From Tessaracoccus flavescens (GTDB taxonomy: Bacteria; Actinomycetota; Actinomycetes; Propionibacteriales; Propionibacteriaceae): a stretch of DNA of 64,000 bases. The translations under genes were made by a program, and so were the position numbers. The notes under the pieces were generated by a model, which saw nothing but the letters and a program-made list of their open reading frames with translations, was not told the DNA's origin and searched no databases. The stretch is from NCBI RefSeq assembly GCF_001998865.1, contig NZ_CP019607.1, positions 3,410,001 to 3,474,000 of the forward strand. The letters are read 5' to 3'. This document shows, piece after piece, positions 1-31,604 of this stretch. Each line of letters opens with the position of its first letter. Position 1 is the first letter of the stretch.

Positions 1-1
1 G

Positions 2-550
2 AACGATCTCGAGGCCCGGTTGATCGTGAGGATGCTTCGCGACATCGACGACTCCTGGGCGAGCGACCCGGCCAATGGAGGAAAGCTCAAAGAGATCGGG
101 ATCGTGTCGATGTACCAAGCTCAGGTTCGGCGCATCAGGCAGGAGATCAACGAGGAGCTTAGGAACAAGCCCTTCAAAGCGATTAAGTACGAGTTGAATA
201 CTGTCGTCAAGTACCAAGGCAAGGAGAAGCCCATCATCTTGGTGAGCATGGTCCGCAACTTCGGCCCCAAGGCGTCGAACCGCAGGCGCAGCTCCCGGGC
301 AAACGTGGCGAGGTTCGAGTACATTAACGTGGCGTTCTCCAGAGCCCAGGAACTGCTCGTCGTGTTCGGCGCCAGGGACACCTTCGCTCCGTACGAAGTG
401 GAGCTTCCGCCGATGGATGCGACTGGAAGCCCGACGATCGCGAACGTCTACAGAGAGATCTGTGACGTCACGGAGCGCAACGGTGCCTTGAAGCAAGCTA
501 GTGCTCTTGGTGAGCTCCCTCCGACACATGCGGGGGCGACACGGCGATGA
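2..550 (+). CDS. SF1 (Upf1/AAA_12-like) helicase, C-terminal part only
   Basis: The frame is open from the first bases of the window, so the start and the ATPase Walker motifs lie outside. The visible 180 or so residues match the second RecA-like domain of superfamily 1 helicases. A segment resembling motif V reads TVVKYQGKEKPIILVSMVR, and a segment resembling motif VI reads YINVAFSRAQELLVVFG; these normally contact nucleic acid and supply the arginine finger. The family unwinds or translocates on RNA or DNA, often in conflict systems and RNA decay. The stop overlaps the next start in an ATGA, so the gene is the visible head of a coupled five-gene cluster. The family call is firm; the exact subfamily and domain layout cannot be judged from this piece. 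Confidence 0.85.
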   Translation, partial: NDLEARLIVRMLRDIDDSWASDPANGGKLKEIGIVSMYQAQVRRIRQEINEELRNKPFKAIKYELNTVVKYQGKEKPIILVSMVRNFGPKASNRRRSSRANVARFEYINVAFSRAQELLVVFGARDTFAPYEVELPPMDATGSPTIANVYREICDVTERNGALKQASALGELPPTHAGATRR

Positions 551-2877
551 GGCTTACCACTGTCAGTGTTGGCATCCCGGTTTTCACGCTCAAGGCGTCG
601 GTCCATCACAGCCTCGTGCGGAAGCCCACCGTCTTCGAGCGAATGGTGCTCCGGCTCACTCGGCGCGGCCACGAGAACCCGGTGGTCGGAGGTTCTAGTC
701 TCCGACAGGCATTCGAGGAACGTCTCGGCGTCCAGGGGGTCCCGCAACTCCTGGAGAGTACTGTCTCAGGGCTGGTCCGATTGGGCGTGTTGAGCGCTCC
801 AGGCGCCCTAGGAAAGTCGCTTCTGGACGAACCGATAGAGACTCTCCGGCTCACCCCCGAAGGCGAGGAGTTCTACAACCGGAACACGCTTCCAAGCAGG
901 CCGACCGCAGACGCCGTGGACTACTCGTACACACCGTGGTCGAATTCGTTGTCCACGGCACGCCCAGGCAAGTTGGCGGAGGTTGCCCCTGGGCTCGCGT
1001 TCGACGATGCCATCCTGCGGCCTCGCGACCCCTCGTCGCTAGTCCGCCGCGAACTCGAGGTGAACCGTCCCCGATTTCTCAAGAAGGAGTCGCGGATCAT
1101 CGACGTAGACGCGGTAACCTCTCAGTCTGTCGCTTGGCTGACCGTTGACATCGAGATTCACGCTTCACCCGAGGGCTACCTCGACCTGAAGACGCAAGGC
1201 AAGGCATACGAGAACTGGCTGCACAAACTGGAACCGGCAGTGGTCCAGGCGACCTTCCTAGATGCGGTCATTGGCAAGGCCAGTGCGCCATATCTCGAAC
1301 TCAATCGAGAGGTTCTCGAACAAGCTAAGCGCCTCGCGCTGGCGAGTGGGCATTCGACGCCCAGTGCACCAACCGTCACCCTGCCGGCTGCCGCGGAAGG
1401 CGGACTCACCATCACCCTCAGTCCCGTGGACGACGCCCCAAAGCTCACGCACGGCTCATCCGGCCACGCCGTGATCTCCTGTCCCGCTCCGACCACGGTT
1501 CCTCCGCAAGTCGTCAGGGTGACCGTGGACGGAGGGCAGGCAACTGATTGCGTGCTGGAGGGCTCGGTGGCCCTGACGTGGGCCGGCGGACTTCGTGACG
1601 TCCACGTCCAAGCGGATCTCGACGGAGAGGACGCCGCTCGATACTGGAAGCCATTCAGCGACGACTTGGCTGCATCACTCGCCGCTTCGACTGATTCCAA
1701 GGTCTCCGTCGTGCCGCTCCTCTGGGGCTCGGACCGACCGATTGACTCATTGAGCCAGCAACTGGTGAGCCTTCCAATTTCCCCGGCACTGGAGAAGATT
1801 GGAGAGTTCTTGACGGCCGCCGGTGAAGCCGGGGCGACGTTCAGTACGGCTCAATCAGACAGGCTGGCTTGCCTACTTGCGGACAGCATCGAAAGCACTG
1901 CCGATGCACCAATTCTCAACATGTCACTCGTCAACGAGTGGCTGGGTTTCATCGCTAGCTCACTAGGGACCGGCACCTCACCAGAGGCTCTCCGGACGGC
2001 GCTCCTGTCCAAGGCAGCTCCGCCCTCATCGGCGTTGGAGGTCCGGCAACTCCTTGCTTTGGAAGGCAATCTTCATAAGATCCCATCCCGATTGCTCGGA
2101 CCAGGCGTGATGGCGGCCGTTCTGGAGGAACTCTGGAACGACCCACAACATGAACTGGTCACAGGTGACGTCGACAGCCTCCAGGGCCTTGAGGCATACC
2201 GCTCGGCACAGGCGTCCTTGGACGCGCTTCTCGGCCGGCATAACGCAGACTTGGGAGCCACTGGTCGGCGCGTGGTCGCAAAGAAGTCGGTCGGTGAAGC
2301 ACTGCAGGCTGCCGAGAAGTGGCTTGCGGCTGTCGATGACCCCAAGCTTGCGCAGGCGACGGGCTCGTCATTCCCGACCGGTCTCCTACAGTTCCGCGAA
2401 AAGGTCCGCGCTTGGCGAGACGCAGCAAACGCGAACCTCGCCCCGGCGATTGGCCCTGACCAGATCGCGCTGGTGTTTGACTCGAACACGCTGCTTGACC
2501 ATCCTGACGCGCTTCCGGGTCTCACCAGTTCACAGATCGGTGTTATCCCAAACCGGGTCATCCAAGAGCTCGACGGGCTGAAGCGCAGTAGCGACGAGAG
2601 CCGAGCCCGAAAGGCTCGTGCCGCCAATCGGACGATCGACGGCCTCCGCGAACGCAACTCGCTTCGCTTAGAGAAGGCCAGAACTGAGCTGATTCCGTCG
2701 GACTTCGGCTCAACGGACGATCCCGACAACCAGATCCTCTCGGTCGCTGTCGCCTTCAGCGGGAGCAAAGTCACCCTCGTGACCGCCGACAAGAACCTTC
2801 GCGCAAAGGCGGAAGCCAGCAACATCAGGGCCAGGGACTGGCTGAGTCTCAAGAAGGCCGGAGGTAGAGACAGATGA
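547..2877 (+). CDS. Large protein with C-terminal PIN-domain nuclease
   Basis: 776 residues, started by the ATGA that overlaps the helicase stop. Residues about 641-770 form a PIN domain: FDSN (D645), an IQELDGLK segment (E674), a DDPDNQIL segment near 725 and VTADKNL (D748) supply the acidic metal-binding set of this RNase fold. The N-terminal 110 residues look like a winged helix ending in LTPEGEEFY; residues 110-600 are unrecognised, with a beta-rich middle and a helical stretch before the nuclease. PIN domains usually cut single-stranded RNA and serve as toxins or in RNA quality control. Here, next to a helicase and an unfoldase, it is the likely effector. Target and middle-region function are unknown. 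Confidence 0.8.
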   Translation: MRLTTVSVGIPVFTLKASVHHSLVRKPTVFERMVLRLTRRGHENPVVGGSSLRQAFEERLGVQGVPQLLESTVSGLVRLGVLSAPGALGKSLLDEPIETLRLTPEGEEFYNRNTLPSRPTADAVDYSYTPWSNSLSTARPGKLAEVAPGLAFDDAILRPRDPSSLVRRELEVNRPRFLKKESRIIDVDAVTSQSVAWLTVDIEIHASPEGYLDLKTQGKAYENWLHKLEPAVVQATFLDAVIGKASAPYLELNREVLEQAKRLALASGHSTPSAPTVTLPAAAEGGLTITLSPVDDAPKLTHGSSGHAVISCPAPTTVPPQVVRVTVDGGQATDCVLEGSVALTWAGGLRDVHVQADLDGEDAARYWKPFSDDLAASLAASTDSKVSVVPLLWGSDRPIDSLSQQLVSLPISPALEKIGEFLTAAGEAGATFSTAQSDRLACLLADSIESTADAPILNMSLVNEWLGFIASSLGTGTSPEALRTALLSKAAPPSSALEVRQLLALEGNLHKIPSRLLGPGVMAAVLEELWNDPQHELVTGDVDSLQGLEAYRSAQASLDALLGRHNADLGATGRRVVAKKSVGEALQAAEKWLAAVDDPKLAQATGSSFPTGLLQFREKVRAWRDAANANLAPAIGPDQIALVFDSNTLLDHPDALPGLTSSQIGVIPNRVIQELDGLKRSSDESRARKARAANRTIDGLRERNSLRLEKARTELIPSDFGSTDDPDNQILSVAVAFSGSKVTLVTADKNLRAKAEASNIRARDWLSLKKAGGRDR

Positions 2878-3983
2878 GCCGAAGAGCCTCTTACAACTAT
2901 GCGGTTGACAATGCAGCGCATCTGGCCGCGCGGGCCTTGCGCCAAGCCGAGTACCAGAGGCGTCAGGCCGAACGAGAGCGCCGCCGAGTCGAGTGGGTAC
3001 AGCGCACGTCGGAGACCACCTCCGGTCACCTCGCCCGCTATCAGGCCATCCTGGATGACATCCGCGAGCAGGACTTGGTTGAGTTCGTGTCCACGGAGTT
3101 CCACGAGATCTCCCGCCTAGTTGCACAGGCACGCTCCCTCACGGTTTCCGACCCTGCTGCCGCACGCGACATCAGTCGCCAGATCGGTCCTCGACTCGGC
3201 CCGCTGCCCAGAACCGCGAGGCAACTGCGAGGGCAACGCCGCGCTGGCGAGACTCCAGCCCACCGACGAGTGGGCACCGAGTATGGGCGCGAAGCGGCAG
3301 CAACCGCGCAAGCCACGCCCGCCACCGACCAGCCCGCGACTCCGGTTGAGAATCCAGCCGAAGTGGCATGGCGTGAATCGCTCGCTGGCTGGACCGACTT
3401 CCTTGCGCGCGACCTCGCCTTTGGTGACCTGACCGCGCTTCGCCAGCGGATCGCCAACCCTGAGAGCGCCTTTGATGCAGCCGAAGTCAAGGCTCAAGTG
3501 AAGGCACTCAAGGACAAGTGGGTCGGGGAAGCCGAGAAACAGCGACGGGAAGAAGCCGAACTTGCCGGTCTCCAAGAACAGCTTGCCGAGGAGCCGCCCG
3601 AAGTTGAGGACCTGGCGCCGCTCGAAGATGAAGCGGAGGACCCTGAATCAGTACGTCGTGAGGCCGTGAAGGCGGTGAGGGGTGCACTTGAAGAGGCCGG
3701 GTTCCAAGTCGCGAACCCGCGGCTTGTCAACGGCGAGGTGGTCGTGGTGGGTACACGACCAAGTGGAGCGAGTGCAACGTTCAACCTGACCCTCGATGGC
3801 TCACTCGAATACGATTTCTCGGGATATCGGGGGGCGAGTTGCGACGTGGACATCGACGCTGTCGTACCGGCACTTCAAGAGGTTTACGGGATCCAGCTGA
3901 CAGACGAGGTCGTTGCCTGGCGGAACCCAGACGACGAGGACGCCACGGCCCGCCCACAGCCCGGAAGGACTAGGAACGCATGA
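2874..3983 (+). CDS. Coiled-coil protein of unknown function in the helicase/PIN/AAA+ cluster
   Basis: 369 residues, start coupled to the PIN gene by ATGA. I do not recognise the family. The N-terminus (about 1-100) is rich in Arg, Glu and Ala and predicts as a long basic coiled coil; 100-165 is low-complexity linker; 165-260 is again helical and acidic (Glu-rich around 225-260). The last 110 residues look like a compact alpha/beta module with strands around GEVVVVGTR, ATFNLTLDG and SLEYDFSGY. The shape suggests an adaptor or sensor that works with the ATPase encoded next. This role is inferred from position only. Confidence 0.7.
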   Translation: MSRRASYNYAVDNAAHLAARALRQAEYQRRQAERERRRVEWVQRTSETTSGHLARYQAILDDIREQDLVEFVSTEFHEISRLVAQARSLTVSDPAAARDISRQIGPRLGPLPRTARQLRGQRRAGETPAHRRVGTEYGREAAATAQATPATDQPATPVENPAEVAWRESLAGWTDFLARDLAFGDLTALRQRIANPESAFDAAEVKAQVKALKDKWVGEAEKQRREEAELAGLQEQLAEEPPEVEDLAPLEDEAEDPESVRREAVKAVRGALEEAGFQVANPRLVNGEVVVVGTRPSGASATFNLTLDGSLEYDFSGYRGASCDVDIDAVVPALQEVYGIQLTDEVVAWRNPDDEDATARPQPGRTRNA

Positions 3984-5821
3984 GCACCCAAGCAGCCCAG
4001 TGGCATACGACGTTCGACCGAGAGATCCGGGTGCGTCGCGGTGTCGTACTGTTCGGAAACGTCCGAGACATCACCAGCGACCCGCAAGGTAGAAGAGGCC
4101 AGATGCCGGTCATCGAGGCCGCGATCGACTTGTTGAAGACGGCCGGCTACCGGCAGGTGCTCCGATGGGACCGCGTGAACGGCGTCCAAGGCGTCACGCC
4201 CGCCCAGTGGCGAGACATTGTCGCGGCATCGACTCCGACCCAACAGTCACAGCTCGAGGGTGAGGAATACGACGCGGGTCCGCGTGCGCCTAGGTCACCG
4301 AACGCTCGCATCGCCACCGACGCAGTCGAGTTCCTCAACGTCGTGGCGAGCGCCGTCCAATCAGACACAAACGAACCGCCCGCCATCGTCCTCGACTGGA
4401 CCGAGTACCTCTTCGGCGAGCCGAACAGTCTCCCTGTAGCCGAACGTGACTGGCTCACGTTGCTCGGCAAGGCGACCCGCGATGTCCCCCTGCAAGCCAC
4501 CGTCTCTGGCAGCAGGACACCGATTGTCGTGCTCGTGTGCAACGGGCTCGCTGTGCTTCCCCCGGCGCTCTACGTCAACAACCCTGACTGGGCGACCGTG
4601 TCCGTCCCTCTCCCCACCCGTGAGCAGCGGGAGGAAGCCATCCTGTCGCTCGGATCAAGCCTGCGAGTGTCCACGCCCATCACGCCAAACACTCGGGGCC
4701 TCACCGATCTCGTCGACGCGTTGGACGGGCTCACCATCAAGGACATCCGCAACATCGCTGCTCTTTCCAGCCTCGACGGCAGCCTCAGCGCCGAGTCGCT
4801 GGTGAGCCTCTACAAGTTTGGCGAACACAGAAGCCCGTGGGAGCAACTCAACCGCGAGAAGTTGAAGACCACCACCCGGACACTCGCGGAACGAGTTAAG
4901 GGTCAGGACCGTGCCATCGAGGCCGTGAACAAGGTTCTCATCCGCGCGTACACGGGTCTTTCAGGGCTTCAGCACTCACGGAAACAGCGCACTCCGAAAG
5001 GCGTGCTCTTCTTCGTGGGGCCGACAGGCGTCGGCAAGACTGAACTCGCGAAATCTCTCGCACAGTTCCTCTTCGGAGACGAGGAAGCGTGCATCCGCTT
5101 CGACATGTCCGAGTACAACCACGAGCACGCTGATCAGAGACTTGTCGGCGCACCCCCAGGCTACGTTGGCTTCGAGGAGGGCGGCCAGCTCACCAACGCC
5201 GTCAAGAAGCGTCCCTTCGCTGTCCTCTTGTTCGACGAGATTGAGAAGGCCCATGGCCGGATCTTGGACAAGTTCCTACAGATCCTTGAAGACGGGCGCC
5301 TCACCGACGGCCGAGGCGAGACGGTCCAGTTTGCTGACACTTTCATTGTGTTCACCTCCAACATCGGTGCCGGCGAGGTCGACCGGCACTCACCCAATGT
5401 CCGTGAGGAGTTCGTCGACCGCGTCCGCGACCACTTCGTTGAGAGTCTGCATCGCCCGGAGCTTCTCGGGCGCATCGGCGAGGCCAACATCATCCCGTTC
5501 GACTTCATCGACAACGACGACTTCCTGGTCGAGATTGCGCGCTCAAAGCTCAGCCCGCTGCGCCTTCGCCTTCAGGAGAAGTGGGGTATCCGTGACCTGC
5601 GGTTCGATGACGAGATCAGAGCTCTGACTGCAGTCGTCCGGGCAATGGACCGCACGGCAGGAGGCCGAGGGGTCCTGGCGGCGCTGTCGGAGAATCTCAT
5701 CGACCCGCTGGCGAACTTCCTGTTCGAGAACCTCGCTACCCCGGCCGACTCCGACGGACGGATACTCCGTGTGACCCAAGATGGCGACGGGGCGACCTTC
5801 AACTTCAAGTTGGTTGCGTGA
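3980..5821 (+). CDS. ClpB/ClpX-type AAA+ ATPase with degenerate N-terminal ATPase-like half
   Basis: 613 residues. Residues 300-540 are a Clp-type AAA_2 module: Walker A GPTGVGKT (347-354), pore loop PPGYVG (392-397), Walker B LLFDE (416-420), sensor FTSN (458-461) and an ELLGRIGE segment likely to hold the arginine finger. An intact aromatic pore loop implies threading of a protein substrate. The N-terminal 280 residues have no P-loop but keep a VLFGNVRD strand and AIVLDW, like an inactive ATPase domain. Classical ClpB has two active modules and about 850 residues, so this is a different architecture. It is coupled by 4-bp overlaps on both sides. Probably a remodeller that controls the PIN nuclease or another partner (inference). 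Confidence 0.9.
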   Translation: MSTQAAQWHTTFDREIRVRRGVVLFGNVRDITSDPQGRRGQMPVIEAAIDLLKTAGYRQVLRWDRVNGVQGVTPAQWRDIVAASTPTQQSQLEGEEYDAGPRAPRSPNARIATDAVEFLNVVASAVQSDTNEPPAIVLDWTEYLFGEPNSLPVAERDWLTLLGKATRDVPLQATVSGSRTPIVVLVCNGLAVLPPALYVNNPDWATVSVPLPTREQREEAILSLGSSLRVSTPITPNTRGLTDLVDALDGLTIKDIRNIAALSSLDGSLSAESLVSLYKFGEHRSPWEQLNREKLKTTTRTLAERVKGQDRAIEAVNKVLIRAYTGLSGLQHSRKQRTPKGVLFFVGPTGVGKTELAKSLAQFLFGDEEACIRFDMSEYNHEHADQRLVGAPPGYVGFEEGGQLTNAVKKRPFAVLLFDEIEKAHGRILDKFLQILEDGRLTDGRGETVQFADTFIVFTSNIGAGEVDRHSPNVREEFVDRVRDHFVESLHRPELLGRIGEANIIPFDFIDNDDFLVEIARSKLSPLRLRLQEKWGIRDLRFDDEIRALTAVVRAMDRTAGGRGVLAALSENLIDPLANFLFENLATPADSDGRILRVTQDGDGATFNFKLVA

Positions 5822-6414
5822 GCTGGATCAACCTCGCGTCGTGGCTCTCATCGACTGAGGCTGAAGGCCCCGGTCGCCGGGCAGCGCTCTGGGTGCAAGG
5901 CTGTCAGTTCCTCTGCCCAGGATGCTGCAACCCCAGCTTTCTTCGCATCGCCCCCCGTGACCTCGTGACTGCGGAATCACTGGTCGAACGCCTCTCCGCT
6001 GCCAAGGCCGAACACAACATCGAGGGACTGACAATGCTCGGCGGAGAACCGTTGCTACAGGCCAAGGGGCTCTCGGAGCTTGCGGCAGGCGCCCAAGGGC
6101 TCGGCCTGTCCGTCATGGTCTTCACTGGCTACACGCTTGAGGAGTTGCGTAGCGATCCTCTTCCCGGCAGCGAGCGACTGCTAGACCACACCGATGTGCT
6201 AGTCGATGGGCGATTCGTGGCGGAACTCCCCGAGCAACACCGCGCATGGGCTGGCTCGAGCAACCAGAGGTTCCACTACCTGACCGACCGCTACGAGAGC
6301 ACGATCGAGCAAACGGACGGCGCTAGCCAGCGCGTTGAGATTCGCTTTAGCGAGTCTGGGCGAGTGGAAGTCAACGGCTGGCCGGCCGACTTCAAGGCCA
6401 AAGGTAACGCCTGA
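5818..6414 (+). CDS. Single-domain radical SAM protein (NrdG/activase-like)
   Basis: 198 residues starting with a GTG inside the GTGA that overlaps the ATPase stop. CQFLCPGC gives C29, C33 and C36, the CX3CX2C that binds a 4Fe-4S cluster, and LGGEP (about 74-78) is the SAM-contact motif. The length matches stand-alone activases such as the anaerobic ribonucleotide reductase activase, but no glycyl radical enzyme is nearby. It may instead modify a member of this cluster, or use SAM chemistry on a nucleotide or protein. No gene follows, so this ends the visible operon. Confidence 0.85.
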   Translation: MSWINLASWLSSTEAEGPGRRAALWVQGCQFLCPGCCNPSFLRIAPRDLVTAESLVERLSAAKAEHNIEGLTMLGGEPLLQAKGLSELAAGAQGLGLSVMVFTGYTLEELRSDPLPGSERLLDHTDVLVDGRFVAELPEQHRAWAGSSNQRFHYLTDRYESTIEQTDGASQRVEIRFSESGRVEVNGWPADFKAKGNA

Positions 6415-7219: not shown

Positions 7220-8029
7220 GTGACGTTGACGTTTGCTGCTGTCATGGCCGATGCGGGTATCGAAGCGCGGGAGGCCCTGGTGATCCGTCATGCGTATGTG
7301 CGTGAGCATGAGGATGGGTCCGCCGGTATCCATGGTGACTCGTCGGATGATGAGATCTTGGCCTACACCCGCGTGCAATCGGCTGATCCCCGGATGTTCC
7401 CGAAGGTTGCACCCGGGTATTGGATCGTGTGCCTTCCTGAGGGTGGGGATCGCGCGCGGCTGTGGTCGGTGGTGGTCAATCATGGCGAGGTCGCCAAAGA
7501 CGGCGGGCTGCGCACGTTCGATCTGGAACGCAGTGACGCGATGGGCGACTTGCGGAATCGGCTTGTGACCGGCTGGCGGTCCCCGCGGACGTGGCGGATC
7601 AACGCGACGACGGCGGCGACGTATCCGGTGCTGGAGATCGCCGATGCTCAGCCGGTGCCGTTCCCGGGCTTTGATGCGCTGATCTTGGACTATCCGCAGT
7701 TGTAGGCCGTGATGCGTGAGCATCGCTATGCGGCGTGGCGGACGGCTCTGGCTTCGGTGGTGGGGATCTATCTGATCACCGATACCCGGGACGGACGTCA
7801 CTATGTGGGGAAGGCGGACGGTGCGGAGAATCTGCTACAGCGGTGGGCTGCGTACTCGGTGAACGGGTATGGCGGGAACGTGGAACTACGTGGCCTGGAT
7901 CCGTCCAGCTTCCGATTATCGGTGTTGAGGGTGTTCGATCCTGCCACCCCGACTGGTCAGATCAACGCTGCCGAGGGCCACTACAAGCACGCGCTGGACT
8001 CGCGTCGGCACGGGCTGAACCGCAACTGA
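7220..8029 (+). pseudogene. GIY-YIG nuclease-family protein interrupted by one amber codon
   Basis: Read through one TAG at 7703-7705, this is a single 269-residue protein. The first part (161 residues, start GTG 7220 after GGGAGG) includes GGDRARLWSVV and GWRSPRTWR segments and ends YPQL; the second part, in the same frame, begins AVMREHRYAAWR and contains the GIY-YIG core GIYLITD...HYVGKA with a later NAAEGHY segment. No frameshift is needed, so a single CAG-to-TAG change in a glutamine codon is the simplest explanation. Re-initiation at GTG 7709 or ATG 7712 could still make the nuclease half alone. Full-length relatives probably act in DNA processing or defence; the substrate is unknown. 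Confidence 0.75.
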
Positions 8030-8532: not shown

Positions 8533-9331
8533 CTATGCGTGCTCGTTGGGGGGCTGGTCGGGTTCTGCGCCAGGGTAGCCTTTGAGGTATCTGCGGTACA
8601 TGACGCGTCCGCCGAAGACGTCGCGGACCTGGGTGCCGATGACGTGGGCGAGTTCGGGGGCGCCGTGGCCGGTGAAGCCCCACCGGTTCTGGCCCTGGTC
8701 AGTCGGGACCTCGGAGGGCAAGCAGGTGTCGATGCGGTAGGCGCCGCGGACGATGCCGAGGGCGACTCCGAGGCAGTAGTGGGCGCGGTCTCGGACCCAG
8801 CCTGAGATCTTCCAGTGACCGCGGGTCTGGTCGTAGATCTGATCCGGGTTGGAGTCGGGAGTCGGGGCGCCAGCCTTTCTGGATCTTGACCATGATGAGC
8901 GGCTGGTTGATGGGCGGGCATGGGTCGGCGCGGTGGCGGGCGATGATGGCGGGCAGTGCGGCGAGTCCACGGGCGCCGGAGTCGTGGCCGCGGACCAGGT
9001 TGGTCAGGGGCTGTCCGTCGGCATGGAAGGCGTCGATGACGGCCTGTTCGACGATGAAGGCGGTGGTCTCGTCTTCGATGTCGGTGCGGAGGAACAGGAG
9101 TTCGACGGGGTGTCCGGTGGCTTCGATGTCGAGGATGGTGCGGAGTTTGGCGCGTTCGGATTCGGGGTCTTTGCCTGCGTCGCGGGTGTGTGCGTTGATC
9201 CGGTCCCCGATGCCTTTGCCGATGTAGAAGACGCGGCCGTTGCGGGGGTCCCTGAGTGCGTACACGTAGTAGCGCAGCACGACCGCGACCTCTCCGGGGA
9301 TGCGCAGGTCGTCGGTCAGGATCCCGAGCAT
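8533..9331 (-). pseudogene. GIY-YIG (LEM-3-like) nuclease gene, frameshifted by a 7-bp duplication
   Basis: The first 155 residues (from ATG 9331) hold a GIY-YIG core: RYYVYALRDPRNG, VFYIGKGIGDRI, then TAFIVEQAVIDAF and LTNLVRGHDS, as in LEM-3-like endonucleases. The frame then switches at about 8860; the continuation reads DQTRGHWKISGWVRD, AHYCLGVALGIVRGAYRI, QNRWGFTGHGAPE and ends at 8533. Removing one copy of the tandem 7-mer at 8851-8864 restores one open frame of about 263 residues. The C-terminal part with RGAYRI and RWGFTG resembles a small beta-rich domain often attached to such nucleases. As it stands only the N-terminal nuclease domain with a wrong tail could be made. Confidence 0.75.
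8851..8864. repeat. 7-bp tandem duplication that breaks the GIY-YIG gene
   Basis: The heptamer GGAGTCG occurs twice head to tail. It sits exactly where the coding frame of the flanking GIY-YIG gene changes, and deleting one unit rejoins both halves without a stop. This is the signature of replication slippage. Confidence 0.85.
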
Positions 9332-9396: not shown

Positions 9397-9921
9397 TCAC
9401 GACAGCGCGGGGCCACCTGGCGGTAGGTCGTGGATGAGGGCTGCGAGTTCCCGGTCGGGGCTGACGTGGCGTTTGAAGAGCGGCCCGCAGGGGACCCGGG
9501 AGAGCTTCAGCGACAGGCCGAGCAGATCGAGCGGCTCTGCTCTGTCGCGGTGGTGTTCGGCAAGGAACGCGAACTCGTTGAGTGATCCGACGAGGCTGCG
9601 GTTGGCGGTGGTGGCCAGGTTCGTGTGGCGGGCGGCGGCGACCTCTGCCGCGTTCACGTGTGGGGGTGTGTGGTGGGCATTGAGGAGCTCAGCGAGGTGG
9701 TCGGGGAACCGCTGGAGGAGGGTGCGGGCGGGGGCGAGGGGCATCAGCAGCGGGAGCAGGGTGCGTTCGTTGATCAGTAGCGCGATCTGGCGGGGGCGCC
9801 AGGGGAGGTAGGTGGCGTACCAGTCCCCGAGCAGGCTCGTCGAGGCTGGCGGGTCCGGGGTGGTCGGGCCGAGGCGTTGCAGCAGTTTCCGGGTTGCCCG
9901 CACAGTCGTCACCCGGCTCAT
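9397..9921 (-). CDS. DUF6933-like protein
   Basis: 174 residues from ATG 9921, chosen because homology-like text begins at VTTVRATRKLLQRLG; the frame is open further upstream but without recognisable content. Features: STSLLGDWYATYLPWRP, ALLINERTLLPLLMPLAPA, TANRSLVGSLNEFAFLAE and a CGPLFKRHVSPDRELAAL tail. These match my memory of the small DUF6933 family (RATKKLL...GDWYA...NERTLLP...MNEFAF). No activity is known to me. It is the only apparently intact gene between the five-gene cluster and the IS481 element. Confidence 0.65.
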   Translation of the reverse strand: MSRVTTVRATRKLLQRLGPTTPDPPASTSLLGDWYATYLPWRPRQIALLINERTLLPLLMPLAPARTLLQRFPDHLAELLNAHHTPPHVNAAEVAAARHTNLATTANRSLVGSLNEFAFLAEHHRDRAEPLDLLGLSLKLSRVPCGPLFKRHVSPDRELAALIHDLPPGGPALS

Positions 9922-10059
9922 TCTGCCTGACAGGTGGCAGTTGATCCAGCGTCCCTTGGGGCGCATCGGAGCCGTGCGGCACGCGCCGACGAACCGGTCG
10001 AGACCTAGATGTACTGACCACGGAGATTGAGTACGCGCGGCGGGTCTGCTGGACATAGG

Positions 10060-26782: not shown

Positions 26783-28680
26783 CTAGGACGGTGCTGAATA
26801 ACCCGCGCGTCGCGGGGTGCTGATCGGGGTGGGCTTGCGATCCTTGTTTCATGCAGGGTGAGGCTGATCGGCAGCGGGAGCTGTTGGACGTGGAGGCGTT
26901 GGCGGGACATCTGTTGGTGCCGGGGAGCGTGTTCGCGTTCCTGGCCGAGCACCGGTTGCGGTTGTTCCCGCCGGAGCTGTTCGCCGACCTGTTTCCCTCG
27001 GGGCGGGGTCGGCCCTCGATCCCGCCAGAGGTCATCGCCTCGGTGCTGGTGCTGCAGTCCTTGTACGGGCACTCTGACAGGGAAGCGGTCGAGGCGCTCA
27101 CGTTCGACCTGCGCTGGAAGGCCGCGTGCGGGTACGCGGTCGACGGGGCCGGGTTCCACCCTTCGACGTTGACGTACTGGCGTAAGCGGCTGGCCGCCAG
27201 CCAACGTCCGGACCGGATCTTCGAGGCGGTCCGCGAGGTCGTCATGGCTACCGGTGTCCTGTCGGGCAAGACGCGGCGGGCGTTGGACTCCACGGTGCTC
27301 GACGACGCGGTCGCCCGGCAGGACACGGTCACCCAGCTGATCGCCTCGATCCGCCGGGTCGGCCGCGACGTGCCGGGCGCGCACGCACTGGTGGTCCAGG
27401 AGTGCACCCGGTTGGCCGAGGTCACCGGCGGTGACTACACGGTCGCTGGCAAGCCGCGGATCGCCTGGGAGGACGAGGCCGCCCGGACCGAGCTGGTGAG
27501 CGCACTGGTGGGCGACGCCCTGGCCCTGCTGGCCGCTCTCGACGCCGCCCACCACGACGAGCACGGCGACCCGGACGGCCTGGCGCTGCTGTCCGAGGCG
27601 GGTGGGAAACCGGCCGAGGCCCTCGCGCTGCTGGCGTTGGTCGCCGGGCAGGACGTCGAGCCGGCGGAGGGTTCCGACGGCACCGACGGGCGGTGGCGCA
27701 TCGCCCGCAAGACCGCGCCGGACCGGATGATCTCCACCGTCGACCCCGATGCCCGGCACGCGCACAAGACCCGCGAACGGCGTCAGGACGGGTTCAAGGC
27801 CCATGTCGTCGTCGAGCCGGACACCGGGCTGATGACGATGGTGAAGCTGACGAAGACCAACGGGGCCGAGCACTCCGACGCCGCGGTGGGTGCCGACCTG
27901 GTCACCACCGACTCCACCCTCACCGCCACCCCTGACGCGCCGGTGCAGGTGCTCGGCGACTCCGCCTACGCCTCCGGTGACATGCTGGCCACGCTCGATG
28001 CCCGCAAGTGGGAACCGGTCCTCAAACCCTGGCCGCTGCGGCCGGCTGTCGAGGGCGGGTTCACCCTGGACGACTTCATCCACGACCCGGTCGCCGGGAC
28101 GTTGACCTGCCCGGCCGGGCTCACCCGCGGCGTCAGTGCCAAGGGCAAGGTGACCTTCGGCGCCGCGTGCGCCGGCTGTCCGCTGCGGCAGCGGTGCACC
28201 ACCGCCGAACGTGGCCGCAAGGTCACCCTGGGTGAGCACCACCAGCTCCAACGACAGCACCGCGAACGAGCCACCGACCCGGACTTCCAGGCCGTCTACC
28301 GACGGCACCGGCCGATGGTCGAACGCTCCATCGCCTGGCTCACGCGCGGAGCACGCCGCGTGCCCTACCGGGGCGTGGCCAAGAACGACGCCTGGCTGCA
28401 CCACCGCGCCGCCGGTCTCAACCTGCGACGCCTCCTCAACCTCGGGCTCACCGTCCAGGACGGGACCTGGGCCATCGCCTGAGGGTGGGACCGGGGGCCG
28501 CTGGGCCCTTGCCACGCCGCCCCGATCGAGCGCAGGATGGCCTCAGGCGGGCGGAACGACCCCGACTGTCGCACCCCAGGGTGCTGACCTCACTGCCGCA
28601 AAGACGGCCTTGGCGGCGCTCCGCCCGCCCCCCTCACGCCATACCCGCCTCAGATCACACCTTGTTCAGCGCCCTCCTAG
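26783..28680 (+). mobile_element. IS1182-family insertion sequence, copy 1
   Basis: 1898 bp counted with CTAG at both ends. The left end CTAGGACGGTGCTGAATAA and the inverted right end CTAGGAGGGCGCTGAACAA match at 16 of 19 positions. CTAG borders the element on both sides and may be the target duplication. It carries one transposase gene. Copy 2 sits 2924 bp downstream in the same orientation, and the two look identical. Confidence 0.9.
26851..28482 (+). CDS. IS1182-family transposase (copy 1)
   Basis: 543 residues. N-terminal DUF772-type region (FLAEHRLRLFPPELFADLF, HSDREAVEALTFDLRWKAA), DDE segments RRALDSTVLDD and VQVLGDSAYASG, and the late cysteine cluster CAGCPLRQRC with MVERSIAWLTRG, characteristic of IS1182. 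Intact, so likely able to move its element. The frame and protein are the same as in copy 2. Confidence 0.93.
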   Translation: MQGEADRQRELLDVEALAGHLLVPGSVFAFLAEHRLRLFPPELFADLFPSGRGRPSIPPEVIASVLVLQSLYGHSDREAVEALTFDLRWKAACGYAVDGAGFHPSTLTYWRKRLAASQRPDRIFEAVREVVMATGVLSGKTRRALDSTVLDDAVARQDTVTQLIASIRRVGRDVPGAHALVVQECTRLAEVTGGDYTVAGKPRIAWEDEAARTELVSALVGDALALLAALDAAHHDEHGDPDGLALLSEAGGKPAEALALLALVAGQDVEPAEGSDGTDGRWRIARKTAPDRMISTVDPDARHAHKTRERRQDGFKAHVVVEPDTGLMTMVKLTKTNGAEHSDAAVGADLVTTDSTLTATPDAPVQVLGDSAYASGDMLATLDARKWEPVLKPWPLRPAVEGGFTLDDFIHDPVAGTLTCPAGLTRGVSAKGKVTFGAACAGCPLRQRCTTAERGRKVTLGEHHQLQRQHRERATDPDFQAVYRRHRPMVERSIAWLTRGARRVPYRGVAKNDAWLHHRAAGLNLRRLLNLGLTVQDGTWAIA

Positions 28681-29706: not shown

Positions 29707-31604
29707 CTAGGACGGTGCTGAATAACCCGCGCGTCGCGGGGTGCTGATCGGGGTGGGCTTGCGATCCTTGTTTCATGCAGGGTGAGGCTGATCGGCAGCG
29801 GGAGCTGTTGGACGTGGAGGCGTTGGCGGGACATCTGTTGGTGCCGGGGAGCGTGTTCGCGTTCCTGGCCGAGCACCGGTTGCGGTTGTTCCCGCCGGAG
29901 CTGTTCGCCGACCTGTTTCCCTCGGGGCGGGGTCGGCCCTCGATCCCGCCAGAGGTCATCGCCTCGGTGCTGGTGCTGCAGTCCTTGTACGGGCACTCTG
30001 ACAGGGAAGCGGTCGAGGCGCTCACGTTCGACCTGCGCTGGAAGGCCGCGTGCGGGTACGCGGTCGACGGGGCCGGGTTCCACCCTTCGACGTTGACGTA
30101 CTGGCGTAAGCGGCTGGCCGCCAGCCAACGTCCGGACCGGATCTTCGAGGCGGTCCGCGAGGTCGTCATGGCTACCGGTGTCCTGTCGGGCAAGACGCGG
30201 CGGGCGTTGGACTCCACGGTGCTCGACGACGCGGTCGCCCGGCAGGACACGGTCACCCAGCTGATCGCCTCGATCCGCCGGGTCGGCCGCGACGTGCCGG
30301 GCGCGCACGCACTGGTGGTCCAGGAGTGCACCCGGTTGGCCGAGGTCACCGGCGGTGACTACACGGTCGCTGGCAAGCCGCGGATCGCCTGGGAGGACGA
30401 GGCCGCCCGGACCGAGCTGGTGAGCGCACTGGTGGGCGACGCCCTGGCCCTGCTGGCCGCTCTCGACGCCGCCCACCACGACGAGCACGGCGACCCGGAC
30501 GGCCTGGCGCTGCTGTCCGAGGCGGGTGGGAAACCGGCCGAGGCCCTCGCGCTGCTGGCGTTGGTCGCCGGGCAGGACGTCGAGCCGGCGGAGGGTTCCG
30601 ACGGCACCGACGGGCGGTGGCGCATCGCCCGCAAGACCGCGCCGGACCGGATGATCTCCACCGTCGACCCCGATGCCCGGCACGCGCACAAGACCCGCGA
30701 ACGGCGTCAGGACGGGTTCAAGGCCCATGTCGTCGTCGAGCCGGACACCGGGCTGATGACGATGGTGAAGCTGACGAAGACCAACGGGGCCGAGCACTCC
30801 GACGCCGCGGTGGGTGCCGACCTGGTCACCACCGACTCCACCCTCACCGCCACCCCTGACGCGCCGGTGCAGGTGCTCGGCGACTCCGCCTACGCCTCCG
30901 GTGACATGCTGGCCACGCTCGATGCCCGCAAGTGGGAACCGGTCCTCAAACCCTGGCCGCTGCGGCCGGCTGTCGAGGGCGGGTTCACCCTGGACGACTT
31001 CATCCACGACCCGGTCGCCGGGACGTTGACCTGCCCGGCCGGGCTCACCCGCGGCGTCAGTGCCAAGGGCAAGGTGACCTTCGGCGCCGCGTGCGCCGGC
31101 TGTCCGCTGCGGCAGCGGTGCACCACCGCCGAACGTGGCCGCAAGGTCACCCTGGGTGAGCACCACCAGCTCCAACGACAGCACCGCGAACGAGCCACCG
31201 ACCCGGACTTCCAGGCCGTCTACCGACGGCACCGGCCGATGGTCGAACGCTCCATCGCCTGGCTCACGCGCGGAGCACGCCGCGTGCCCTACCGGGGCGT
31301 GGCCAAGAACGACGCCTGGCTGCACCACCGCGCCGCCGGTCTCAACCTGCGACGCCTCCTCAACCTCGGGCTCACCGTCCAGGACGGGACCTGGGCCATC
31401 GCCTGAGGGTGGGACCGGGGGCCGCTGGGCCCTTGCCACGCCGCCCCGATCGAGCGCAGGATGGCCTCAGGCGGGCGGAACGACCCCGACTGTCGCACCC
31501 CAGGGTGCTGACCTCACTGCCGCAAAGACGGCCTTGGCGGCGCTCCGCCCGCCCCCCTCACGCCATACCCGCCTCAGATCACACCTTGTTCAGCGCCCTC
31601 CTAG
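29707..31604 (+). mobile_element. IS1182-family insertion sequence, copy 2, inserted in a GntR gene
   Basis: Same length, ends and internal sequence as copy 1, with the same CTAG borders. Here the interrupted gene can be read on both sides (winged-helix N-terminus to the right, its continuation to the left), giving direct evidence of insertion. On the target strand CTAG at the junction produces an in-frame TAG. Confidence 0.92.
29775..31406 (+). CDS. IS1182-family transposase (copy 2)
   Basis: 543 residues, same protein as the transposase at 26851-28482, with the DUF772-type N-terminus, DDE segments and cysteine cluster intact. Identity of both copies indicates recent duplication or ongoing gene conversion. 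Confidence 0.93.
   Translation: MQGEADRQRELLDVEALAGHLLVPGSVFAFLAEHRLRLFPPELFADLFPSGRGRPSIPPEVIASVLVLQSLYGHSDREAVEALTFDLRWKAACGYAVDGAGFHPSTLTYWRKRLAASQRPDRIFEAVREVVMATGVLSGKTRRALDSTVLDDAVARQDTVTQLIASIRRVGRDVPGAHALVVQECTRLAEVTGGDYTVAGKPRIAWEDEAARTELVSALVGDALALLAALDAAHHDEHGDPDGLALLSEAGGKPAEALALLALVAGQDVEPAEGSDGTDGRWRIARKTAPDRMISTVDPDARHAHKTRERRQDGFKAHVVVEPDTGLMTMVKLTKTNGAEHSDAAVGADLVTTDSTLTATPDAPVQVLGDSAYASGDMLATLDARKWEPVLKPWPLRPAVEGGFTLDDFIHDPVAGTLTCPAGLTRGVSAKGKVTFGAACAGCPLRQRCTTAERGRKVTLGEHHQLQRQHRERATDPDFQAVYRRHRPMVERSIAWLTRGARRVPYRGVAKNDAWLHHRAAGLNLRRLLNLGLTVQDGTWAIA

Follow-up and report, generated by a model that had tools for sequence, protein, structure and literature searches.

A rare five-gene cassette that joins a UPF1-like helicase and an SMG6-type PIN protein to a recurring ClpB-like/radical SAM trio is a probable defence system

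Introduction

What would a bacterium do with five overlapping genes in which a UPF1-like helicase and a PIN nuclease are followed by a coiled-coil-like protein, a ClpB-like ATPase and a radical S-adenosylmethionine (SAM) enzyme? In humans, the helicase UPF1 and the nuclease SMG6 act as a pair that destroys faulty messenger RNA. The bacterial cassette lies at the beginning of a 64,000-nucleotide stretch of the Tessaracoccus flavescens genome (G000:C1:3410001-3474000, contig NZ_CP019607.1; hereafter the window), which opens inside the helicase gene. A first-pass annotation had proposed that the five genes are a self-contained system in which the ATPase and the radical SAM protein control a nuclease. 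What it had observed was confirmed and its interpretation is partly supported by the present data. We lean towards reading the cassette as a mobile five-gene immune system, with a UPF1-like helicase and a PIN effector under a three-gene control module, and it is probably an undescribed defence against viruses or plasmids. The effector appears to be of a known kind; what looks new here is the trio that accompanies it, apparently a portable module: a ClpB-like ATPase, a radical SAM enzyme and, as third member, a coiled-coil-like protein with a cysteine domain.

Results

Layout of the cassette

All five genes are on the + strand. On rereading, their junctions are indeed the 4-bp overlaps ATGA, ATGA, ATGA and GTGA, in gene order and at the positions first reported. 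In window coordinates, with lengths in amino acids (aa), the genes are:

1..550, +, 3′ end of the helicase gene (UPF1-like SF1, MkoA-like; AAA_11, AAA_12 and MkoA matches)
547..2877, +, PIN protein, 776 aa (MkoB-like N-terminus, helical middle, C-terminal SMG6-type PIN)
2874..3983, +, coiled-coil-like protein, 369 aa (C-terminal alpha/beta domain with the motif YxFxxYxGxxCxxD, C323)
3980..5821, +, AAA+ protein, 613 aa (degenerate AAA-like N-terminal half; ClpB-type D2 with Walker A/B and GYVG pore loop)
5818..6414, +, radical SAM enzyme, 198 aa (NrdG/pyruvate formate-lyase-activase-like; CxxxCxxC, GGEP)

Extension upstream of the window completes the helicase gene, which spans L002:10792-14550 (1,252 aa) or begins at a GTG at L002:10861 (1,229 aa), the latter start being the more likely; L and G numbers denote our loci and genomes. 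Its start thus lies about 3.1-3.2 kb before the window. The G+C content of the cassette is 0.619, compared to 0.680 for window positions 12001-64000 and 0.699 upstream.

The five genes stay together in distant bacteria

Relatives were collected with a profile of the coiled-coil protein, which gave three loci in genome_contigs, and by tblastn, which gave 10 of 72,556 plasmid records; an AAA+ match lies beside the coiled-coil match in all ten of the latter. Nine loci were opened, namely our own, the three genome loci and five of the ten plasmid records (one of six from Moellerella, plus those from Polaromonas, Acinetobacter, Photobacterium and Leisingera). In each of these nine loci, all with a full-length coiled-coil protein, the gene set, order and strand are identical, an arrangement too regular to be put down to chance. 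They span actinobacteria to alpha-, beta- and gamma-proteobacteria, and five are plasmid-borne. An additional profile match in G275 is a fragment only, and phmmer detected none of the five cassette genes on its 7.4-kb contig.

The proteins have diverged to different degrees. The lowest identity to our own copy is 45% for the AAA+ protein (range 45-83%), 42% for the radical SAM protein, 32% for the coiled-coil protein, 27% for the helicase (range 27-60%) and 18% for the PIN protein. The genes for the AAA+, radical SAM and coiled-coil proteins are mostly tightly spaced in all nine loci. Pairwise identities correlate in 10 of 10 gene pairs (rho 0.59-0.95, with 0-2 of 2000 permutations reaching the observed value), figures that include any signal of host relatedness. 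These correlated divergences speak for inheritance of the cassette as a single unit and, together with the nine conserved loci, agree with the self-contained unit proposed at the outset.

The helicase and the PIN protein

Our helicase matches the Pfam families AAA_11 (4e-35) and AAA_12 (3.5e-33), and by profile its nearest solved chains are SMUBP-2, DNA2, yeast NAM7/human UPF1 and SEN1. All nine loci keep the motifs GPPGTGKTT, DEVSK and GDHRQLP; in our protein motif I is at residue 461 and motif II at 902, with about 440 residues between them. PADLOC scans of the cassette name single components only, MkoA, MkoC and MkoB. MkoA models match the nine helicases (E <= 0.001; ours at 2.4e-106, the best value), as do, more weakly, those of MkoC from Mokosh type II. 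Our helicase aligns to positions 426-1098 of the 1,112-residue MkoA model, of which positions 59-238 match a kinase; the two helicases scanned with Pfam, our own and that of L011, contain no kinase family.

In the PIN protein, PIN_4 matches residues 642-764 (1.1e-23) and the Pfam scan revealed no PLD or NERD domain. MkoB matches residues 4-262 only, at the N-terminus (2.4e-8, the best of the set), and reaches E <= 0.01 in four of the nine PIN proteins. Within a limited comparison set of solved PIN domains, SMG6/EST1A is the best match both by sequence profile (1e-9) and by fold search, where it takes ranks 1-6; Nmd4 and SMG5 are also among the matches. Residues D645, E674, D727 and D748 are invariant in all nine loci; D645, which the first-pass annotation had singled out for mutation, is part of the PIN active site. 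The structure model of the whole protein (pLDDT 88) fits a winged helix at the N-terminus as judged from the order of helices; a fold search returned no match named winged helix-turn-helix (wHTH). Since the helicase matches MkoA and its partner combines an MkoB-like N-terminus with an SMG6-like PIN domain, the effector would be of the Mokosh/CoCoNuT helicase-nuclease kind, and the cassette looks like a branch of the MkoA/CnuH type with PIN as its nuclease.

This alters the first description in two ways. Its helicase, PIN and ClpB-like parts are all there; the helicase is more precisely UPF1-like, and the AAA+ protein possesses an additional degenerate AAA-like N-terminal half. The statement that no named defence system could be matched did not hold, given the MkoA and MkoB matches and a layout that resembles operons in the available text of the CoCoNuT paper (PMC11090510).

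The coiled-coil-like protein

The label "coiled-coil" goes back to the first-pass annotation and to the long helices of the structure model (pLDDT 77, pTM 0.39). The protein has no Pfam family at E <= 1 and a weak PADLOC match to the MukB-like JetC (1.7e-5); a fold search of the model gave low TM-scores only (spermine synthase, KA1, AdoMetDC-like) and was not used. Residue C323 within YxFxxYxGxxCxxD, located where the last long helix of the model begins, is invariant in 22 of 22 aligned rows, many of which are close relatives.

The AAA+ and radical SAM proteins

The AAA+ protein matches AAA_2 (1.4e-49) and, over residues 291-587, ClpB (3.9e-78, below the model cut-off); none of the NCBIfam models listed is matched above its cut-off, and there is a trace match to McrB (0.005). 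In alignment A3, which comprises the window protein and 13 database proteins and no plasmid copies, a single Walker A, a single Walker B and a single pore loop occur in all 14 rows, always in the ClpB-like second half; K353, another residue named at first pass, belongs to the only Walker A. Because the N-terminal half has no Walker A and weakly matches classical AAA proteins (Vps4, paraplegin, VCP-like, E ~0.004), it is read as a degenerate ring. Docking to ClpP seems unlikely since the sole [ILV]G[FL] tripeptide of the protein sits in the pore loop, and no ClpP-docking loop was seen.

The radical SAM protein matches Fer4_12 (8e-34) and NrdG (2.2e-28, below the NrdG cut-off), and its sole solved relative at E <= 0.001 is pyruvate formate-lyase (PFL) activase. 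CxxxCxxC and GG[ED]P are kept in 13 of 13 rows. The motif [RK][VI]xG[YFW] is not conserved: among the five proteins of nine loci it was found twice, both times in L007.

The trio recurs beside other effectors

More distant AAA+ relatives with an adjacent radical SAM gene were detected in Rhizobium (L012, L125), Aristaeella (L014) and the same genus (L121, L122). Different partners accompany them: L012 encodes a kinase-DUF4011-helicase-REase protein, L014 a DUF4011-annotated helicase that carries an REase domain, along with separate kinases, and L121 an FHA-PP2C-kinase. The coiled-coil family was not found by sequence in these five loci; each encodes another helical protein whose first residues are MSGPK (VSGPK where the start codon is GTG). 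With a profile built from the five proteins (A12), four new genome loci came up (2/396 and 2/369 genomes), and all four, found through the MSGPK protein alone, contain AAA+ and radical SAM matches. Altogether 11 of 13 MSGPK loci carry both genes in the fetched stretch, five of which do not test the link because they had been found through the AAA+ protein; among the 13 rows, L131 does not have the exact SGPK start and the start in L130 is uncertain. By tblastn, the Rhizobium MSGPK protein matches 11 plasmid records, and eight of these also belong to the 18 records in which the AAA+ match is near full-length.

The C-terminal domains of the coiled-coil and MSGPK families can be aligned by hhalign (score 28.0, E 0.00038), with their cysteines paired; the MSGPK cysteine is invariant in 13 of 13 rows. 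Shuffled columns reached maxima of 20.1 (60 runs) and 19.2 (300 runs), and a reversed profile 14.1. Profiles made from single sequences failed to link the families. The E-value against the coiled-coil C-terminal domain went from 0.07 with the Rhizobium pair to 0.0016 with the sister-genome pair and 0.00038 with all 13 sequences.

The idea that the ATPase and the radical SAM protein are a control unit gains support from the recurrence of this pair beside other effectors, usually with a cysteine-bearing coiled-coil-like protein, and a trio that occurs with different effectors is best read as a control module.

Two observations concern individual loci of this group. L121:8736-15597 is a compact signalling cassette encoding the MSGPK protein, AAA+, radical SAM, FHA/zinc ribbon, PP2C and protein kinase, among which no helicase or nuclease was identified. 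In L122, the kinase gene that belongs to the AAA+/radical SAM module has a reverse transcriptase-Cas1 fusion (490-2484, -) at a distance of 0.7 kb.

Rarity and mobility

The cassette is rare and patchy. The coiled-coil profile matches two of 296 genomes of the own phylum (our own, and the fragment in G275), one of 350 in the class of the L006 genome and one of 299 in the family of the L004 genome, the single match being the seed in both cases. In these samples of 296, 350 and 299 genomes there is hence no full-length match beyond the own and seed genomes. A whole-length match to the AAA+ profile occurs in our own genome alone among 60 genomes of relatives (own included). Megablast with the Moellerella cassette gave no match in Escherichia coli genomes, a weak test as it needs ~85% identity. 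A known housekeeping operon, which had been named among the findings that would speak against the initial interpretation, was rejected on the basis of this rarity in the samples.

Relatives of the cassette reside in 10 plasmid records, seven of them typed as conjugative and six from Moellerella, and one plasmid locus adjoins repABC. Four copies are not from plasmid records; three of their contigs measure 0.1, 1.2 and 3.6 Mb, and the fourth is a 47-kb contig of a metagenome-assembled genome. A plasmid therefore does not seem to be needed.

A phage-encoded origin was considered and rejected: a search of 50,697 phage records gave no match to the coiled-coil protein, and none of 57 pattern matches in viral_contigs was confirmed. 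A scan of viral_contigs with the AAA+ alignment yielded at least 80 loci; among the matches listed all begin at residue 251 or beyond, mainly in the ClpB-like half, and the scan was not used.

Our own cassette is located ~2 kb downstream of a tRNA-Pro(ggg) gene (L002:8790-8866). In the sister genome G323, the segment from this tRNA to a LacI gene measures ~62 kb versus ~17.5 kb in our genome and holds two copies of the tRNA 3′ end (41-43 bp); further copies are present in G314 (46 bp) and G306 (26 bp). The tRNA-Pro site is probably a chromosomal integration hotspot in the genus. For our own island, no stray match to the tRNA end over ~12-15 bp exists in 98 kb and so no attachment site is claimed. 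Between tRNA and cassette lie a gene for a DUF7669 protein (L002:9163-10377) and a 119-aa open frame (L002:10407-10766), possibly a remnant, that weakly matches the N-terminus of DISARM DrmA (0.007, PADLOC). Further downstream, window positions 26783-28680 and 29707-31604 are two identical 1,898-bp stretches ~1 kb apart, each with a 543-aa DDE transposase.

Neighbouring genes

The first-pass annotation had placed the cassette beside a decayed nuclease island, as expected of a defence locus. A defence-like neighbour is present at five of nine loci (our own, L006, L008, L009 and L010). The scan covered 28 chosen proteins, partly from outside the nine loci and with L011 left out, and 13 of the 28 had no match. 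In our own window the neighbours are:

7220-7705, +, UzuA-like frame (PADLOC 9e-35, model positions 37-194 of 310)
8699-9331, -, GIY-YIG protein of the LEM-3 type (PD-T4-3 over residues 12-153, 2e-26)
9397-10056, -, DUF6933/PDC-S63-like gene

A separate GIY-YIG open frame (Pfam 1.4e-4) follows 3 bp after the UzuA-like frame, and the pair (7220-8029, +) appears to be an Uzume-type gene that was split or has decayed. A VakA-like kinase and a pVip-like radical SAM protein are encoded directly downstream of the cassette in L009 (L009:13733-15715), two pVip-like proteins upstream in L010 (L010:434-2502), and a PDC-M51B/VakA-like protein adjoins a radical SAM gene in L006 (L006:13553-15343). In L008 there is a PDC-S26-like protein, and the annotation places a type I restriction S subunit close by. 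Viperin-like or other radical SAM genes thus lie next to three of the six proteobacterial copies (L009, L010, L006), two of which (L009, L006) also have VakA-like kinases.

Discussion

How might the five proteins work together? The UPF1-like helicase would bind RNA or single-stranded DNA and bring along the PIN nuclease, docked via its putative winged-helix N-terminus, and the PIN domain would then cut the recruited nucleic acid, most likely RNA. According to the part of one paper available to us, Mokosh degrades viral transcripts (PMC11291487), and such an activity would fit RNA as the target here. The effector could act like eukaryotic UPF1 with SMG6, and would be a counterpart of the MkoA/MkoB and CnuH/CnuE pairs in which the nuclease is a PIN domain. 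The ClpB-type AAA+ protein may assemble into a hexamer with one inactive and one active ring that remodels or loads the effector, with the coiled-coil protein as its adaptor. The radical SAM enzyme would modify a partner as a licensing or sensing step, the best candidate being the C323 loop of the coiled-coil protein.

A wider proposal, which we put forward tentatively and think possible but doubtful, makes the trio an undescribed portable immune control module: the radical SAM enzyme would modify the cysteine loop of the adaptor, and the half-dead ClpB-type ring would read the mark and arm or disarm whichever helicase-nuclease or kinase effector is plugged in. In our cassette the trio would be plugged into a bacterial decay machine resembling UPF1-SMG6. 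It would give antiviral defence a post-translational switch based on radical SAM chemistry, of which no demonstrated case is known to us. For other conflict systems, the available text of one study already predicts a radical SAM enzyme that modifies a peptide (PMC7159879).

Several observations weigh against these interpretations. The target may be DNA. Part of the co-divergence could come from host relatedness, and since L004 and L005, both from Microbacterium, have similar flanks, the nine loci are not all independent insertions. MkoB does not match five of the nine PIN proteins, and the most distant one (L011) is just 18% identical to our own. Enrichment near defence genes is suggestive only, because the neighbours were picked by eye and there were no control flanks; no defence-like neighbour appeared among three proteins scanned in L004, and L005 and L007 gave weak ATPase matches only. 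For the trio, the hhalign probability of the link between the two cysteine-bearing families is 36% despite the controls. The radical SAM frame of L125 has only 126 aa and that of L133 is ~7 kb away, and in Roseomonas L136 and Microvirga L137 the MSGPK protein has neither AAA+ nor radical SAM gene in the stretch. L123 (G339) has the AAA+ and radical SAM genes and, by profile, neither coiled-coil family, and in Geminocystis L013 an AAA+ homologue stands alone, without radical SAM; judging from L123 and L013, the partner of the radical SAM enzyme could be the AAA+ protein itself.

How much room does this leave for other explanations? We regard it as unlikely that the cassette is a quality-control operon for RNA or protein, concerned with ribosome rescue or the decay of stalled mRNA and not with defence. 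UPF1- and SMG6-like parts together with an unfoldase would suit a surveillance resembling nonsense-mediated decay (NMD), but the genes are rare and patchy in the genome samples described above, for the full-length coiled-coil protein as well as for the whole-length AAA+ protein, and copies lie on plasmids and near a variable tRNA site. Plasmid carriage itself suggests another role, that of plasmid or island maintenance or of competition between elements, in which the cassette kills or excludes other mobile elements and not phages. The ten plasmid records, with their conjugative members, six Moellerella plasmids and the locus beside repABC, are in line with such a role; the four copies from outside plasmid records are not, and we give it a low probability.

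We see an equally small chance that the cassette is a Mokosh type I variant, in which MkoA and MkoB make up all of the functional system, the other three genes being accessory passengers. The MkoA matches of all nine helicases (also matched, more weakly, by MkoC) and the MkoB matches of four PIN proteins point in this direction. However, every one of the nine loci has the three supposed passengers, mostly at close spacing and co-diverging with the rest; the AAA+ protein is better conserved than the helicase, and the kinase region of MkoA has no counterpart in our helicase. The least probable alternative has the radical SAM enzyme forming a glycyl radical on one of the cassette proteins. NrdG and PFL activase are its closest families, but no glycyl-radical enzyme is found among the five proteins, the [RK][VI]xG[YFW] motif is not conserved, and several hosts of the cassette are, we presume, aerobes.

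We thus favour an immune system with a helicase-nuclease effector under the control of the trio. If this is correct, bacteria employ an NMD-like helicase with an SMG6-type nuclease for immunity, a radical SAM enzyme and an unfoldase govern the pair, and radical chemistry is tied to the control of an immune effector. The recurring trio would then mark further undescribed defence systems wherever it is present.

Comparison with known systems

We found no description of the five-gene set or of the trio in the literature accessible to us, which mostly leaves out subscription papers, so that an earlier description is possible. The closest named system is Mokosh type I, with which the cassette shares a homologous helicase in all nine loci and a similar partner N-terminus in four. 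It differs by a helicase that, in our own copy, lacks the kinase region of the MkoA model, by a PIN domain where PLD and NERD domains are listed in the available text on Mokosh (PMC10952713), and by three extra conserved genes.

The CoCoNuT paper sets out, in its available part, a large family in which a UPF1-like helicase precedes a wHTH-nuclease protein whose effector is HEPN, Vsr or PLD (PMC11090510). The resemblance to CnuH/CnuE extends to a long insertion after Walker A of the helicase and to a next protein with a C-terminal nuclease and, in our reading of the model, a putative winged-helix N-terminus (PMC11090510). In contrast to CoCoNuT, none of the five cassette proteins is an McrB GTPase or McrC, and the AAA+ protein is of the ClpB type; the phrases PIN domain, radical SAM and ClpB are absent from the main text of that paper as available (PMC11090510).

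The combination of helicase and PIN has been described before, by Kaur et al. (2020): in the accessible text on ternary NTP-dependent conflict systems, an SF1 helicase module typically occurs with a PIN domain among the effectors, and a radical SAM enzyme is thought to modify the peptide effector of FtsH ternary systems (PMC7159879). Those systems are built on vWA-MoxR or FtsH, and a ClpB-type AAA+ protein with a radical SAM enzyme is not described in that text (PMC7159879). No vWA or MoxR Pfam match was obtained in the five cassette proteins.

Like ClpB/ClpV-type unfoldases, the AAA+ protein has a D2 ring that includes Walker A/B, the pore loop and a small C-terminal domain; it differs from them in its N-terminal half, which lacks a Walker A and weakly fits classical AAA, and no ClpP-docking loop was seen. 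The radical SAM enzyme resembles NrdG and PFL activase as a small protein with CxxxCxxC, but it remains below the NrdG cut-off and is not accompanied by a glycyl-radical enzyme. As for eukaryotic UPF1/SMG6, shared descent as a pathway is not implied: the likeness is an analogy of parts, in which the helicase belongs to the UPF1/SMUBP-2/SEN1 clade and the PIN domain finds its best solved match in SMG6.

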